Shown here piece by piece: positions 16,289 through 25,240 of a stretch of 64,000 nt of DNA; within the stretch, counting starts at the first letter, position 1, and each line of letters starts with the position of its first letter. The position numbers were made by a program, and so were the translations under genes. The stretch comes from Bacteroidia bacterium (lineage in GTDB: Bacteria > Bacteroidota > Bacteroidia > B-17B0 > Aurantibacillaceae), in contig JAEUTO010000005.1 of the NCBI GenBank assembly GCA_016787785.1, positions 496,001 to 560,000 on the forward strand, read 5' to 3'. The notes under the pieces were generated by a model. It did no database searches. It was not told where the DNA came from and was given only the letters and a program-made list of their open reading frames with translations.

Positions 16289-18046
16289 ATGAAAAAAAAT
16301 CTACTACTTTACCTTTTTGTTGCTTTGACTTTTTATAGTCGCTCGCAATGCGTTTCTGCTTTTTATGATGGCTTCGAATCGGGAAGCTACACGCCAACCT
16401 GGACTTTAGGCACAGGGCTTTCGTCTGCCAGTGTAACAACCGGAAGTGCTTATGCCGGAAACTTTAAAGTTGAGGGAATAGGAGGTACAAGCACACATTT
16501 AACAGGCTTGTCAACTGCTTTTGCGGCTGCAACACCTAATTATATGTCGTGGGCGGTATATCCAACGGGAACAGGAGCCACTAATTATGTAGTTGCCGGC
16601 GATAATGCAGTAACGGCAACTAATTGTATGATGTTTTGCTACTGGCAGGGAGGTACTAATATCAGATTTGTTTCTTCAAGTACACAAATTTATAACTGTA
16701 CACCAAATGCCTGGTATTTTATAGAATTAAAAAATATAAATTTTACCACGCATGTGTTTGACATCTATATCAATAATGTTTTGATCGCCACAGCGTTCCC
16801 ATTCAGATCTGCATCTGTAAATAATTTAACAAGGGTTCATCTTTATAATTTTAATTCGGGTACTGGAATCTGGGACGACGTGAAGGTTGGAAACGGTTTT
16901 TCTGCAAGTGCGTTAACTAACTCTATTTCATGTTTTGGTGGATCTAACGGCTCTGCCACTGTTTCAGTTGTTGGCGGTACAGCGCCTTACACCTATAGCT
17001 GGACCTCTCCTGCTGTTAGCACAACATCTATTGCAAGTAATTTAACTATCGGAAGCTATACCTGTACTGTATCTGATGGAACATGTACAGCTGTTTCATC
17101 TATGGTAATTAATCAGCCTGCGCAAATTGCTATTAGTGCAACACAAACCAATGTAAGCTGTTTTAATGCTTGTACTGCTATCGCCAGCGCAGTTGTAACA
17201 GGTGGTGTTGGTCCTTATACTTATAGTTGGTCGCCATCTGGTGGTCCGGCAAATGTGTCTGCTAATTTATGTGCAGGCAGTTATACCTGTTTAGTAACTG
17301 ATGGAAATGGATGTCCAATGTCACAAGCTTATACTATTTCACAACCTACGCAAATAGTAAGTACTATAAATCAAACAAATATTACTTGCGTAAATCCTGT
17401 GGGCTCTGCTACGGCAAATGTAAGCGGTGGCTCAGGTCCATATACTTACAGCTGGTCTCCTACAGGAGGTAATGCGGCTGTTGCGTCTCCTCTGTCTCCT
17501 GCAAATTATACATGTACTGTTGTAGATGCAAATTTGTGTGCGGCAATGTCAACAGTTAATATAGTTTCAAATACTACAGCTCCTTCTGTTTCAATTGCAG
17601 GTACAAGTGTTATTTGTACTGGGCAAACTGCTACATTGGTTGCAAGTGGTGCCAATACGTATACATGGAATACAAGCTCAAACGCAAGTTCAATAGCAGT
17701 TTCGCCAACTGTAAATACAACCTATACTGTTACCGGAACTAACACTACTAACGGTTGTGTTGCAACAGCAACGGTAACCCAAAACGTGTCATTATGTACA
17801 GGGCTAAATAGTCTTGCAAAAAATAGTTCACCTGCAATAAATGTTTATCCAAATCCAAACAATGGAAAATTCACTATTGTATTTGCCGAGAACGGAAAAT
17901 ACAATTTGATAAATGCACTTGGGCAAGTTGTAAGAGAAATTAATTTAAACGATAGCAATAGTTCAGTAGAATTTTATGGTTTAGCTTCAGGTATCTATTA
18001 CATTACTGGAAATAGTGTGAAAATAAAAGTAATTGTAACTAATTAA
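16289..18046 (+). CDS. SprB-repeat surface protein with T9SS type A sorting domain
   Basis: A 585-aa exported protein with a signal peptide at residues 1-20. Residues about 22-200 look like a jelly-roll, LamG-like domain (FYDGFESGSY ... YFIELKNINF). Three SprB-type repeats follow at about 212-276, 288-352 and 364-426, each with the core PYTYSW and GSYTCTV or a close variant. An Ig-like module lies at about 430-500. The T9SS type A domain is at 516-585 (INVYPNPNNGKF, ASGIYYITG). SprB itself is the gliding adhesin of Flavobacterium; the repeats occur in many surface adhesins, so adhesion is the inferred role. It lies 6 bp upstream of maf. A TATCTTCG -7-like element is at 16265-16272. Confidence 0.87.
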   Translation: MKKNLLLYLFVALTFYSRSQCVSAFYDGFESGSYTPTWTLGTGLSSASVTTGSAYAGNFKVEGIGGTSTHLTGLSTAFAAATPNYMSWAVYPTGTGATNYVVAGDNAVTATNCMMFCYWQGGTNIRFVSSSTQIYNCTPNAWYFIELKNINFTTHVFDIYINNVLIATAFPFRSASVNNLTRVHLYNFNSGTGIWDDVKVGNGFSASALTNSISCFGGSNGSATVSVVGGTAPYTYSWTSPAVSTTSIASNLTIGSYTCTVSDGTCTAVSSMVINQPAQIAISATQTNVSCFNACTAIASAVVTGGVGPYTYSWSPSGGPANVSANLCAGSYTCLVTDGNGCPMSQAYTISQPTQIVSTINQTNITCVNPVGSATANVSGGSGPYTYSWSPTGGNAAVASPLSPANYTCTVVDANLCAAMSTVNIVSNTTAPSVSIAGTSVICTGQTATLVASGANTYTWNTSSNASSIAVSPTVNTTYTVTGTNTTNGCVATATVTQNVSLCTGLNSLAKNSSPAINVYPNPNNGKFTIVFAENGKYNLINALGQVVREINLNDSNSSVEFYGLASGIYYITGNSVKIKVIVTN

Positions 18047-18701: not shown

Positions 18702-19547
18702 TTATTGTGCTTTTTCTTTTAATTTTTCTTCTTCAATTTCCTTTAAACGTGCCTCTTCGTCTAGTTTTGCTTTTTCAATACGTTTCTTTTCAATTATCTT
18801 TTCGCGGTATGCATTATTTCTCATATTCTTTTCGCGAATACCACTAAAATAACTTTTGGTTGTTATAATTACCACACCACCCATTACATCGCCATACATG
18901 GCCGGAACACCGCCACTAAATACAGTTAAGTTCTCAATACCTAAACCCGGAATTGTGCTGGCGCCCATAGTTCTTACACCATCTACAAAATAACCGGTAG
19001 CATCGCCACGAGTACCTCTAAAATGCAATTCGCCATTTGTTTCAATCACATCAGAAGAAATGCTTGTTAATGTGCCTTTTATATTTCCCCGGTCAGCGCC
19101 CGCTAACTGTAATAATTCTGTGGCGTCAAGGCTTTTCATTGTGTACATGCTTTTATCTACTCCCGAGTTAGTGTAATCATAGGCTTTTGCCGTAACAGTT
19201 ACTCCCTCGAGGGTATTAGGTGTAATCTTTACATCTACATAAGTGGCCTCATTGGGTACAACTTTTATTTTATTTACAGGTTGGGTCTGATGTCCCGCTT
19301 CTATTATCACCAGATCATACGTGCCGGGGTTTAAAGGTTTGTATTTATATCTACCCTGAGCGTCGGTTTGAGTGCCTCCTATAAGAACGTTACCCTGTAA
19401 GATCTTTACGGTGGCAAATTCTACCGGTTCAAGCTCTGTATTTTTAATAATTCCACGGATCTCACCATAGCCTTGCGCTATAGTACTAAGTCCAAACACC
19501 ATGAATAGTGCGGAAAGGACTGCTGTTTTAAGTTTTAAAGTTTTCAT
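18702..19547 (-). CDS. Carboxypeptidase-regulatory plus TonB-receptor plug domain protein without a barrel
   Basis: A 281-aa exported protein with a signal peptide at about residues 1-24 (ending TIAQG). A carboxypeptidase-regulatory/Ig-like domain spans about 27-110 (GEIRGIIKNTELEPVEFATVKI, TDAQGRYKYKPL). A TonB-dependent receptor plug follows at about 120-230 (FRGTRGDATGYFVDGVRTMG, PAMYGDVMGGVVIITTK). It then ends in a charged helix of Lys/Glu repeats, while real TonB-dependent receptors continue for 500 or more residues as a 22-strand barrel. A terminator immediately downstream shows that no barrel remnant exists. It is divergent from an ECF sigma gene. Function is unknown, perhaps a periplasmic signalling or scaffold protein. 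Confidence 0.8.
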   Translation of the reverse strand: MKTLKLKTAVLSALFMVFGLSTIAQGYGEIRGIIKNTELEPVEFATVKILQGNVLIGGTQTDAQGRYKYKPLNPGTYDLVIIEAGHQTQPVNKIKVVPNEATYVDVKITPNTLEGVTVTAKAYDYTNSGVDKSMYTMKSLDATELLQLAGADRGNIKGTLTSISSDVIETNGELHFRGTRGDATGYFVDGVRTMGASTIPGLGIENLTVFSGGVPAMYGDVMGGVVIITTKSYFSGIREKNMRNNAYREKIIEKKRIEKAKLDEEARLKEIEEEKLKEKAQ

Positions 19548-19682
19548 AATTTCTGTTTTTAAAGGTTTATATTAATTTGTACCGGTTTCTGATAATAAGA
19601 CAGAAATAGTGGGATATTCCATAAATAAATTATTTTTATGGAATAATAAACTAAAAGCGTCTTAATAGAGAGAAACGGATTT

Positions 19683-20279
19683 ATGTGGTTATTTAAAAAA
19701 AGAGATTTTGCCACGGATGAGGAACTTGCCCTGAATTACTTTAATACAGGCGATAAAGAACTTGTGGGCCTGCTTTTTGAAAAACATGTAAAAACGGTTT
19801 TTGGGGTTTGCTTATTTTATTTCAGAGATAAGGATGTTGCCAAAGATGCAGTGATGCAAATATTTGAGAAGTTGATCACTGAATTAAAAAAGACAGAAGT
19901 AAAGAATTTTAGAGGTTGGTTAAGTTTTGTGGTAAGAAATTATTGTATTAGCGAGATCCGCAAGAATAAAAATAAACATAGGTTACCCGAAAGTTATTTG
20001 GAATTTGAATTAACGGAGACGACAATTGAAGAAGAAGAGAAAGTTTTAGGAGTGAGCGATGAAGTAATGATGGACCATATGCAGGCAGGTTTGTTAGAAC
20101 TGAAAGAAAATCAAAAAATTTGTGTCGAATTATTTTATTTAAAAGGGCAGAGCTACCAGCAAATTTGTGATAAAACAAATTTTTCTTTGAACGAGGTAAA
20201 AAGTTTTATTCAAAACGGTAAACGAAATTTGAAATTAGTAATTGAAGCAAAAATTAAAAACAGAAAAAATGCAGGTTGA
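19683..20279 (+). CDS. ECF RNA polymerase sigma factor
   Basis: A 198-aa sigma-70-family protein of ECF size. Region 2 is seen as LLFEKHVKTVFGVCLFYF and DAVMQIFEKLI, then FRGWLSFVVRNYCISEIRK. Region 4 is a helix-turn-helix: LKENQKICVELFYLKGQSYQQICDKTNFSLNEVKSFIQNGKRNLK (split here: starts LKENQ, ends RNLK). The downstream gene overlaps it by 11 bp and encodes a single-pass membrane protein with TPR repeats, which has the position and topology of an anti-sigma factor. The sensed signal and regulon are unknown. The plug-only gene, divergent across 135 bp, is a candidate target. Confidence 0.9.
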   Translation: MWLFKKRDFATDEELALNYFNTGDKELVGLLFEKHVKTVFGVCLFYFRDKDVAKDAVMQIFEKLITELKKTEVKNFRGWLSFVVRNYCISEIRKNKNKHRLPESYLEFELTETTIEEEEKVLGVSDEVMMDHMQAGLLELKENQKICVELFYLKGQSYQQICDKTNFSLNEVKSFIQNGKRNLKLVIEAKIKNRKNAG

Positions 20280-21276
20280 TAAAAATAATATAGACGATCT
20301 TGATTATCTTGCCCAACTTGGCTTTGAGAAGGTGGCTGTAAACGAGGCCGATCTTGCCGACCTAAAATCGAAGGTGAAGAACCGTACCTTTTCTTATAAC
20401 AATGGTATTTACTTTGGTTTTATTAGTTTGATCATCGGCATATTTATTGGCGTATCCTTATTTTTTATGATCGATAATAAGCCGGTGCTTTATTCGTCAA
20501 ACACACCAAACAAGATCTTAAATGATGCATTGTCTGCTAAAAAAGTAATTACTGAAAAACCGATTATATTAGATACTATTAACATCGTTAAAGAGAATTT
20601 TATTCATACTTCTTCTGTTGTTGATCATGTTACAGATAATGCAGGTAATACTTATTATACAGCAAACGATTCAGTAGTAATGATTCCTTCACAACCAATT
20701 GATGTTTCGGCAATGCTTGGTAAAGGAACCGGCGAGTCAAAGATCAAATACATCACCAACGCGCCCATAGTTTACATTCACGATCTTAAAGTAACTAATT
20801 ATACAACCCTATATTTTAAAAAGAACCAATATATAAAGTTGCCACTCAAAGGTGCATTATCGGTTGCATATGCTAACAAAGAAGATATTAATAAGGTTAA
20901 CTCAGGTTTAAAACAGAGTGCCGATTATTTTCTGCATGAAGAATTTTCGGATGCTTTATTGTCTTTTAAAAACGGTAACTACTCACAATGCATTTATTCT
21001 TTAAACGTAATTTCAGGATACAACGATAACGACATTAACTGTAATTTTTATATGGGAATGAGTTATTATTACAAAAAGAACTATGAAAAGGCTGCCGAGT
21101 ATTTAGAACGGTGTATTGAAGATCAAAACAATGCTTTCTTACAAGAAGCTATGTTTTACAAGGCTCTTGCGTTGTATGAAAATGGAGATAAAGCGCCAGC
21201 GCTTGAAGAATTTAAAGTTATTGCCGACGAAGGCGAGTTTTATGCGGAAAAAGCAAAAGCGTTCTTAAAAAAATAA
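20269..21276 (+). CDS. Single-pass membrane protein with C-terminal TPR repeats, putative anti-sigma partner
   Basis: The start is ATG 20269 (335 aa); the frame extends 9 codons further but there lies within the sigma gene. The layout is a cytoplasmic N-terminus of about 45 residues (LDYLAQLGFEKVAVNEADLADLK), one membrane helix at about 46-67, a long periplasmic linker, and two to three TPR-like units at about 215-330 (CNFYMGMSYYYKKNYEKAAEYLE, AMFYKALALYENGDKAPALEEF; read as separate helices). It overlaps the sigma gene by 11 bp, typical of sigma/anti-sigma pairs. The N-terminus does not show a classical zinc anti-sigma domain, so the role is inferred from position and topology. Confidence 0.72.
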   Translation: MQVDKNNIDDLDYLAQLGFEKVAVNEADLADLKSKVKNRTFSYNNGIYFGFISLIIGIFIGVSLFFMIDNKPVLYSSNTPNKILNDALSAKKVITEKPIILDTINIVKENFIHTSSVVDHVTDNAGNTYYTANDSVVMIPSQPIDVSAMLGKGTGESKIKYITNAPIVYIHDLKVTNYTTLYFKKNQYIKLPLKGALSVAYANKEDINKVNSGLKQSADYFLHEEFSDALLSFKNGNYSQCIYSLNVISGYNDNDINCNFYMGMSYYYKKNYEKAAEYLERCIEDQNNAFLQEAMFYKALALYENGDKAPALEEFKVIADEGEFYAEKAKAFLKK

Positions 21277-23545: not shown

Positions 23546-25240
23546 ATGAAAAAAAATTTACTCATTTTGTTTGCGGCTCTTGCAGCGGGCCTCAGTAGTC
23601 AGACACAGGCTTATCTCGACATTAATAATGTAAAAGCCCTTATTATGAATCGGAACGACATGTTCTGGAATCTTGCTTCCGGAAATGCATCCTATGAAGT
23701 GCCAAAAAATTCAGGTAAGCATTGCAATTTTGCAAGCTCGGTTTGGCTCGGTGGTCTTGATGGTGGTGGCCAGCTTCATATGGCGGGCATGACCTATAGG
23801 CAAAATGGGGTGGATTTCTGGCTAGGCCCTTTAGACACTATTAGTGGAAATATTGATAACGCAACTTCTAATAATTTTGACAAAGTATGGAAAGTGAGCA
23901 CAAACGATATTAATTCGTTCCTTGTAGCTTATGCCAACGGATCAATTACTGCTAACACTTATGTTCCTACAAATGATATTTTAACCTGGCCCGCACATGG
24001 CAATGTTTCCGGAGGTTATTCACATTATCTTGCTCCGTTTATAGACGTTGACAATGATGGTATCTATAACCCTTATAACGGCGACTACCCAAAAATTAAA
24101 GGTGATCAAATGATCTTTTATGTTTGTAACGATAAAAAGTCATCTCATACAGAAACGCAAGGAGTAGCTCTCGGCGTTGAGATCCAGGTATCGGCTTACG
24201 CATATAATTGCCCGGCCGTTTTAGCATCCTACCCTGAGTTAAACAACACTACATTTTATAATTACAAAGTATTTAACCGCTCAAGTATACAGTATAATAG
24301 TACAATGGTGGGTATATGGAGCGATGTTGATCTTGGTAATTATACAGACGATTATATTGGTTGCGACCCACAGGCAAGTATCGGTTATGCGTACAATGCA
24401 GATAGTCTGGATGGTAGTTATGGAAATTTTCCGCCAATCACATCTTACCAGGTATTAAAAGGACCACTTGCCAACCCAATGGATGCAGTAGATAACAATC
24501 ATAACGGTTTAATTGATGAACCAATGGAAGACACAAGATTTAATAATTTTATGTATTATAATAATAACATAGGCGCATTTCCCCCGCAAACTAATAACCC
24601 CGGCGTTGCGATTCATTATTATAATTACATGAGGTCGATCTGGTTAGATGGCTCACCTTTAAAAGGCGATTCAACAGGTTATCTTTATGGCAATTCTTCA
24701 CCTGCAATTCCTTATGCATATCCTGGCAATCCACAACTTAATACAGGTTGGAATGAATACACAAAAAATAATTTAAAAGGAGACAGACGTTTTATTATTG
24801 GTAATGGCCCTTTCACTTTTTTACCAAATGCTGTTTTCGAAATGGATTTTTCAGTATTAACAACTTTTGATAGTAGTGCAACGGGACATAAAAATATCGC
24901 TAAAATGAAAAATCAAAATGCTGTTGTGAAAAATTTTTACGACCTGGCTAACAAGCCCAGTTGTATAGCACTTGTGAGCGGTATCAGTGAAACAATGATC
25001 GAAAAAATAAATGTAAGTATTGTTCCAAATCCGGCTTCCGATCTTATTTATATCTATTCAAGCAAAGATCTAACAAATTCTGAAATAAAATTATACAATA
25101 GCCTTGGGCAAGTGGTTTTTTCTGATAAAATACTTAGCGAAACATATAAGGTAAATTTAAAAGATCTTTCAAATGGCCTTTATATAGTTGAAATAAAAGG
25201 CGATCATATTTTTGGGAATAGTAAAATGATCAAAAATTAA
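23546..25240 (+). CDS. Exported protein with T9SS type A sorting domain
   Basis: A 564-aa protein with a signal peptide at about residues 1-20. Residues 22-485 form a large domain of unknown function with many aromatic and Asn/Asp-rich loops. One loop, DVDNDGIYNPYNGDYP (about 171-186), resembles thrombospondin type 3/calcium loops, and DNNHNGLIDEPMED is a second such loop. The last 75 residues are a type A T9SS domain: VSIVPNPASDLIYIYS, LYNSLGQVVFSDK, LSNGLYIVEIKG. Secretion to the surface or medium via T9SS is well supported; the activity is not recognised. It is monocistronic with its own terminator. Confidence 0.82.
   Translation: MKKNLLILFAALAAGLSSQTQAYLDINNVKALIMNRNDMFWNLASGNASYEVPKNSGKHCNFASSVWLGGLDGGGQLHMAGMTYRQNGVDFWLGPLDTISGNIDNATSNNFDKVWKVSTNDINSFLVAYANGSITANTYVPTNDILTWPAHGNVSGGYSHYLAPFIDVDNDGIYNPYNGDYPKIKGDQMIFYVCNDKKSSHTETQGVALGVEIQVSAYAYNCPAVLASYPELNNTTFYNYKVFNRSSIQYNSTMVGIWSDVDLGNYTDDYIGCDPQASIGYAYNADSLDGSYGNFPPITSYQVLKGPLANPMDAVDNNHNGLIDEPMEDTRFNNFMYYNNNIGAFPPQTNNPGVAIHYYNYMRSIWLDGSPLKGDSTGYLYGNSSPAIPYAYPGNPQLNTGWNEYTKNNLKGDRRFIIGNGPFTFLPNAVFEMDFSVLTTFDSSATGHKNIAKMKNQNAVVKNFYDLANKPSCIALVSGISETMIEKINVSIVPNPASDLIYIYSSKDLTNSEIKLYNSLGQVVFSDKILSETYKVNLKDLSNGLYIVEIKGDHIFGNSKMIKN

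Follow-up and report, generated by a model that had tools for sequence, protein, structure and literature searches.

In uncultured Bacteroidota, four genes, three of them adjacent, quite probably make up an ECF sigma/anti-sigma circuit that regulates itself and has a very small regulon. The gene unit, its promoter element, the unlinked fourth gene, the co-occurrence of these parts and the relation of the TPR protein's N-terminus to longer anti-sigma-like domains were all derived by sequence comparison. The window, i.e. the whole stretch of 64,000 nucleotides that was analysed (G000:C13:496001-560000), belongs to a genome of 4.6 Mb. It contains a cassette of a plug-only gene, a sigma factor gene and a TPR gene, whose features are listed in Table 1.

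Table 1. Position of the cassette genes and predicted regulatory elements in the window
Feature	Position	Strand	Description
Plug-only protein, 281 aa	18702..19547	-	Signal-peptide-like start, CarboxypepD_reg, TonB-receptor plug, charged C-terminal tail
Palindrome-like element	19575..19589	-	At predicted plug-transcript start site; imperfect in the window, symmetrical in most relatives
Predicted ECF-type promoter, plug gene	19596..19622	-	ATGGAA-N14-TGTCTTA
Predicted ECF-type promoter, sigma/anti-sigma operon	19638..19664	+	ATGGAA-N14-CGTCTTA
ECF sigma factor, 198 aa	19683..20279	+	Sigma70_r2 and r4_2
Single-pass TPR protein, 335 aa	20269..21276, ATG 20269	+	Putative anti-sigma factor, shortened cytoplasmic domain (residues 1 to ~45), periplasmic TPR region

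The three-gene cassette and its distribution

An earlier, sequence-only reading had described an 11-bp overlap of the sigma and TPR genes, a 135-bp divergent gap, a single-pass TPR partner and a plug-only gene. All of these features were confirmed, with the overlap at 20269-20279 and the gap between plug and sigma gene at 19548-19682. In Pfam, the plug-only protein matched CarboxypepD_reg (8.5e-12) and Plug (5.3e-5), both above the curated cut-off, Plug barely. No other family exceeded the cut-off over the 281 residues, and neither an STN domain nor a barrel was found. The 27 aligned orthologs have 232-301 aa, a length that is insufficient for a barrel. The own genome encodes 31 frames with a plug domain; 30 of them are 685 to 1,241 aa long and the cassette frame has 289. 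Its nearest long homologs are the N-termini of ~1,240-aa proteins. The order of CarboxypepD_reg and then Plug is shared with TonB-dependent receptors that carry an N-terminal CarboxypepD_reg extension (SusC-like, Oar-like). In these receptors the plug is followed by a beta-barrel, whereas the window protein stops after the plug with a charged tail and has no barrel. Among solved structures, no match was found for CarboxypepD_reg, plug and tail as one protein. The sigma factor matched Sigma70_r2 (5.9e-9), r4_2 (1.2e-8) and TIGR02937, all above cut-off. A Pfam match to region 3 was absent, so that the protein consists of regions 2 and 4 only, as is characteristic for ECF factors. The TPR protein matched TPR_6 (9.5e-9) and has one hydrophobic stretch at residues ~45-68.

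Each of the three proteins was used as a query against 60 genomes, 37 of the genus (own genome included) and 23 of the other families of the class. All three genes together were found in 22 genomes from three family groups, namely in 20 of the 37 genus genomes and in two of the 23 others (G054 and G056). G009 and G025 contain one cassette gene each, at a contig edge, and 15 of the 37 genus genomes have none of the three genes. In these 15 genomes the best plug matches were N-termini of long frames, and the best sigma matches were paralogs with at most 42% identity. The plug gene is divergent from the sigma gene and the TPR gene follows the sigma gene in all 22 intact loci. A chance neighbourhood was ruled out by the recurrence of this layout in 22 of 60 genomes. 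The earlier proposal that the three genes form one unit came with its own refuting condition, separate occurrence in relatives. It passed this check, with the genes side by side in 22 of 22 intact loci and single genes seen only at the contig ends of two more genomes. The unit is, however, larger than was noted then, with an unlinked fourth gene and the same ECF-type element in both promoters. Variation is found in the spacing of the genes: a gap replaces the sigma/TPR overlap in G010 (95 bp) and G056 (8 bp), and the divergent gap of G054 measures 551 bp. Since the loci are related to each other, they do not count as independent observations.

Named genomes were scanned as well and revealed six further full loci (L288, L297, L301-L304) and one that is cut by a contig end (L305). 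In the same scan L307 showed two tandem plug-only genes upstream on the same strand. There, L307:120-6591 encodes on one strand two plug-only proteins, a TPR-SpoIIE-like protein and an outer-membrane-protein-like one (by eye), then the sigma factor and the TPR anti-sigma factor. In G055 the plug-only gene is not adjacent to the sigma/TPR pair. Many loci are flanked by Maf, UbiA-like, TsaB and HlyD-like genes (all but Maf labelled by eye). These neighbours were not found around others, e.g. L106, L111-L114, L117, L119 and L120, hence the cassette is retained where its surroundings are not.

The region is flanked by two proteins that bear T9SS-type C-terminal signals (window 16289-18046 and 23546-25240), one of them with SprB repeats; each was found beside only three of the 22 cassettes. 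Elsewhere in the own genome, L124:8004-11720 (G000:C2) encodes the ~1,240-aa CarboxypepD_reg-Plug protein that comes closest to the plug-only protein among its long homologs. Proteins of this type are present in at least 33 of the 37 genus genomes among the matches listed, and the L124 protein matched no barrel family at E up to 0.01.

A shared promoter element and an unlinked propeller gene

The most clearly conserved feature of the 135-bp gap is a pair of near-identical mirrored elements, TTTATGGAA-N14-CGTCTTA, one facing each gene. The plug-side copy in the window reads TGTCTTA instead of CGTCTTA. A GGAA -35 box combined with a CGTC -10 box is a usual style of ECF promoters. For flavobacteria, an ECF-type motif with a CGT -10 box is reported in PMC9723704. 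The two predicted outward elements agree with the earlier view of the gap as a divergent promoter region. Because the gap holds two near-identical outward predicted promoters of ECF type, both the plug gene and the sigma factor's own operon are probably transcribed by this factor. With the same predicted element before both genes, the sigma factor looks autoregulated.

The spacing was analysed with the pattern ATGGAA-N-[CT]G[TC]CT on both strands of 29 cassette loci (866,970 bases). N14 gave 49 matches, N15 gave five, and every other spacing from 8 to 22 gave zero to three. As a control, 20 block shuffles resulted in zero to three matches. Both outward sites were present in 24 of the 29 loci and one site in four, and L119 had none under this pattern. 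The exact element occurs at 55 sites in the 60 genomes. The 22 cassette or cassette-edge genomes of the genus hold 47 sites versus 8 for the reversed control, 30 at cassettes and 17 elsewhere; in cassette genomes the element is found at one to four places per genome. Cassette-free genus genomes (15) contain two sites versus three in the control. The 23 genomes of other families contain six versus five, none of them in G054 or G056. Four of the eight sites outside the cassette or edge genomes of the genus were inspected (G001, G024, G051 and G059), and all lie inside reading frames.

Some genomes deviate from the exact form. G056 uses N15, the plug promoters of both G056 and G027 have N15, and G054 contains only degenerate forms. 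In G068 the element was absent at both places inspected. The N15 form was not counted as support, save for the plug promoters of G056 and G027: with three mismatches it had 186 sites in the own genome versus 278 in the control, and with one mismatch it matched in 59 of 60 genomes. When the element was made to end in GTCTAW, 12 sites were obtained in 37 genomes (23 of the genus), four of them at known cassettes or propeller genes (G013, G007, G011 and G020).

The own genome has one other exact N14 site, whose end lies 8 bp upstream of a 441-aa gene on a different contig (G000:C12:52845-54167). The product of this gene (~440 aa) is probably exported, as its start is signal-peptide-like, and combines a transthyretin-like CarboxypepD_reg domain with a predicted beta-propeller (AlphaFold mean pLDDT 85). 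In VIA-align, this protein matched transthyretin-like domains, with a top Z of 14.1 over 81 residues at rmsd 1.4, as well as many propellers (Z about 13, rmsd about 4). These matches of a model give a predicted fold, not a function. Orthologs of this fourth gene lie behind 12 of the 17 off-cassette exact sites in cassette genomes, 11 times directly and once behind a 186-aa gene that precedes the propeller gene. Three of the remaining five sites were flagged inside reading frames and two lie before other genes (205 aa; 284-aa protein, G009). One of the three flagged sites, G007:C71, extends across the called start of its frame, so that it may be a promoter.

At 48% identity or more, the propeller gene was detected in 21 of the 22 cassette or edge genomes of the genus, one copy being a contig-end fragment (G028), and in none of the 15 cassette-free genus genomes. 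The copies of G054 and G056 are 38-41% identical, and the G067 copy has an internal stop. G017 has the cassette and lacks the fourth gene. A 24% identical 441-aa protein occurs in G023, which has no cassette, and remote relatives exist in G055 (31%) and G037 (24%). All 19 genus orthologs whose start was placed by script carry the element at N14, 12 in the strict and seven in a looser form; start placement failed in six of 25 loci (G013, G028, G037, G054, G055 and G056). By eye, the propeller genes of G054 and G056 have element forms with N15. Further genomes, which were not used for discovery, contained the gene in nine of nine cases (32-77% identity). The element was present in seven of the eight with a readable start, in two of these with one mismatch as judged by eye, and G068 was without it. 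In 17 of the 19 orthologs the element sits at -33 to -36 from the start codon (own copy L204:6810-6846). Since the promoter element is so near to the start codon, the propeller mRNA may be nearly leaderless.

The distribution was compared with a tree of one marker protein from 33 of the 37 genus genomes, which is not a species tree. On this tree the cassette needs 6 to 9 state changes and the fourth gene 8. Six independent pairs on firm branches were five times concordant, never opposite and once neutral (p 0.0625, not significant alone). The cassette label was barely clustered, with 103 of 500 shuffles as low. Gain and loss of the four genes tend to coincide.

The plug leader carries an additional symmetrical sequence. 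A CG-centred palindrome of at least 6 bp directly after the -10 box was found in 17 of 26 plug leaders, where shuffles gave a mean of 1.5 and a maximum of 7, versus two of 26 sigma leaders. When every inverted repeat in 24 bases whose stem is at least 4 was counted, the numbers were 22 of 26 for plug leaders, where shuffles gave a mean of 6.2 and a maximum of 13, and two of 26 for sigma leaders (mean of 5.4 in shuffles); a few repeats in this loose count, e.g. in L117, may be other sites. The letters of the palindrome differ between loci (AACCGGTT, AAGCGCTT, GAACGTTC, AGAATGCATTCT) and the symmetry is mostly kept. A pattern made from the window's own copy matched one place in the own genome, the plug leader. 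Possibly a dimeric regulator uses the palindrome as its operator, as a second control on the plug gene.

The TPR protein as putative anti-sigma factor

The interpretation that fits the TPR protein best is an anti-sigma factor whose N-terminus has been shortened. It had been noted before that this N-terminus is not a standard anti-sigma zinc domain, and indeed no anti-sigma zinc domain of Pfam matched it at E up to 1. Neither Pfam nor NCBIfam gave a FecR match at this limit, and only TPR families were above cut-off. One hydrophobic span, followed by a tail of 252-288 residues, is present in each of the 22 aligned TPR proteins and in seven others. H-x3-C-x2-C is given as the zinc signature of class I anti-sigma domains in a section of PMC7406223. 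This motif is present in L119 and L120 (G054 and G056), in which 85 and 76 residues precede the predicted membrane span. Six orthologs (L297, L301-L305) have a longer N-terminus without zinc ligands. The genus form has lost the first part and keeps ~45-49 residues before the membrane. Here AlphaFold predicted two helices ahead of the membrane helix, at low confidence (pLDDT 46-71 in the N-terminus). These zinc-motif and longer zinc-less orthologs make the TPR protein a likely anti-sigma partner, in line with the role suggested for it earlier.

The window protein and the zinc-motif ortholog of G054 align from residue 17 to 334 (E 1.8e-20). Because of this full-length match and the shared gene order, we regard the TPR proteins as orthologous. 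In hhalign, the shortened N-terminus matched the longer zinc-less form with a probability of 97.6%. Profile comparison with the zinc forms was weak, with 20% for the shortened N-terminus and 40% for the longer zinc-less form. A fold search with the TPR model returned ordinary TPR matches, BamD and YbgF first. The TPR gene lies beside the sigma gene, as is typical of class I, and its product has one hydrophobic stretch and a presumably cytoplasmic N-terminus. The four-helix N-terminal domain of this class is lacking in the low-confidence model of the window protein, which is therefore considered as derived from class I and not filed under it.

The partners of ten related sigma factors were scanned with Pfam. 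Five of them end in TonB_C (L129, L132, L133, L134 and L137). The L137 partner (462 aa) has CarboxypepD_reg in addition and adjoins a divergent CarboxypepD_reg/VWA gene. The others showed a clear TPR match (L135), a weak one (L136) or no family above cut-off (L123, L131 and L138).

Mechanism, rival readings and relation to known systems

From these comparisons we infer sigma binding, release, a periplasmic sensor role and promoter use as follows. The TPR protein would reside in the inner membrane and hold the sigma factor with its short cytoplasmic N-terminus, a reduced class I anti-sigma domain. The periplasmic TPR region would sense the state of the envelope or a ligand, and an event there would free the sigma factor, probably by proteolysis. 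Freed sigma would take RNA polymerase to TTTATGGAA-N14-CGTCTTA promoters. Its targets would be its own operon, the plug gene for the CarboxypepD_reg-plug protein without a barrel, and the unlinked gene for the CarboxypepD_reg-propeller protein. Positive autoregulation with a co-made anti-sigma factor would make this a switch that resets.

The place of the plug-only protein can be read differently. In a cell-surface signalling model that follows FecA acting through FecR, it would be the input: it would dock in the outer membrane or a receptor, contact the TPR region and so free the sigma factor, with its gene also a target. The plug gene and the sigma operon in one divergent promoter region fit this model. 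The TonB_C domain of TonB proteins binds receptors, and the TonB_C ends among the partners of related sigma factors, together with the CarboxypepD_reg domain of the L137 partner and its divergent neighbour, point the same way. However, the STN signalling domain, the barrel and the FecR domain are all absent, a target gene need not be the input, and the contact between plug and TPR region is hypothetical; we consider the model rather unlikely. The sequence-only reading, which had named the plug-only protein as the outer input, is not supported in that form: the protein is a probable target of the sigma factor, for which an input role is possible. Conceivable as well, if short of probable, is that the plug-only and propeller proteins are effectors only. 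They would answer envelope stress by protecting or sealing outer-membrane barrels, and the TPR region would sense damage by another route. Small autoregulated stress circuits are common among ECF sigma factors. Both proteins have a signal-peptide-like start, a CarboxypepD_reg domain and the same sigma-type promoter, but a plug that acts in trans on another barrel is hypothetical, as are the target barrel and the phenotype.

A further alternative concerns the mirrored element, which might be the palindromic operator of a separate transcription factor while the sigma factor controls other genes. The two ATGGAA parts do form an inverted repeat in the window. Against this, the site at the propeller gene is single and directional, with its CGTC half at a fixed spacing near the start codon, and among loci the distance between the mirrored sites varies while the inner spacing is nearly always 14. 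We regard such an operator as highly improbable and retain the autoregulated sigma/anti-sigma circuit.

FecI-FecR-FecA, as presented in a part of PMC9249621, has in common with the window unit an ECF sigma factor, a single-pass membrane partner and a TonB-receptor-plug protein among the targets. The window unit differs in having no FecR domain, STN domain or barrel, and in a periplasmic part made of TPRs. Moreover, fecIR is transcribed by sigma-70 according to the same part of PMC9249621, whereas the window sigma operon appears to share the predicted promoter type of its target. Membership in the Fec type was rejected for the missing FecR domain, STN domain and barrel, and the likeness to Fec signalling that had been proposed is functional at most. 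The class I anti-sigma factors treated in a section of PMC7406223 (RseA, ChrR, RsiW and RskA) resemble the TPR protein in the overlap with the sigma gene, the cytoplasmic N-terminus and the single span, and two orthologs of the window protein keep their H-x3-C-x2-C. Class I domains have four helices in that section of PMC7406223; the window protein differs with its ~45-49 residues, two predicted helices and periplasmic TPR region. The SM6 regulon (CGT -10 box) of Flavobacterium psychrophilum, in a part of PMC9723704, likewise has a Bacteroidota ECF-type promoter and targets its own sigma/anti-sigma pair. SM6 promoters serve several T9SS components in that part of PMC9723704; the genes that follow the element described here included none that was recognised as a T9SS component. 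A search of an open-access library found no report of such a circuit, which is weak evidence of absence.

By this comparative evidence, the predicted circuit is a variant of ECF/anti-sigma signalling. Only 6% of Bacteroidetes ECFs are associated with a class I anti-sigma domain in a section of PMC7406223, compared with 32% on average across phyla. The graded series of zinc domain, zinc-less domain and shortened domain suggests how an anti-sigma factor can escape profile searches. The promoter element is defined and the predicted regulon is small enough to be tested as a whole, and barrel-less plugs gain a regulatory context and an unlinked partner gene. More speculatively, anti-sigma factors of Bacteroidota may directly read parts of TonB-receptor type and so form a class of trans-envelope switches. 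The anti-sigma factor would end in TonB_C in some lineages and in one of them also carry CarboxypepD_reg; here a TPR anti-sigma factor with a minimal two-helix tip for sigma binding would have the free plug and the propeller as soluble relay partners. We hold this idea to be doubtful; if true, it would explain part of the few recognised class I neighbours of Bacteroidetes ECFs.

The own genome has a second ECF sigma factor, L123 (G000:C16), which is 39% identical. The partners of this sigma factor and of its relatives at L130, L131 and L138 have an N-terminus without zinc ligands in which an A-x-EGF stretch is kept, and YfiR-like, TPR and two-span signalling-like genes (labels by eye) lie nearby.
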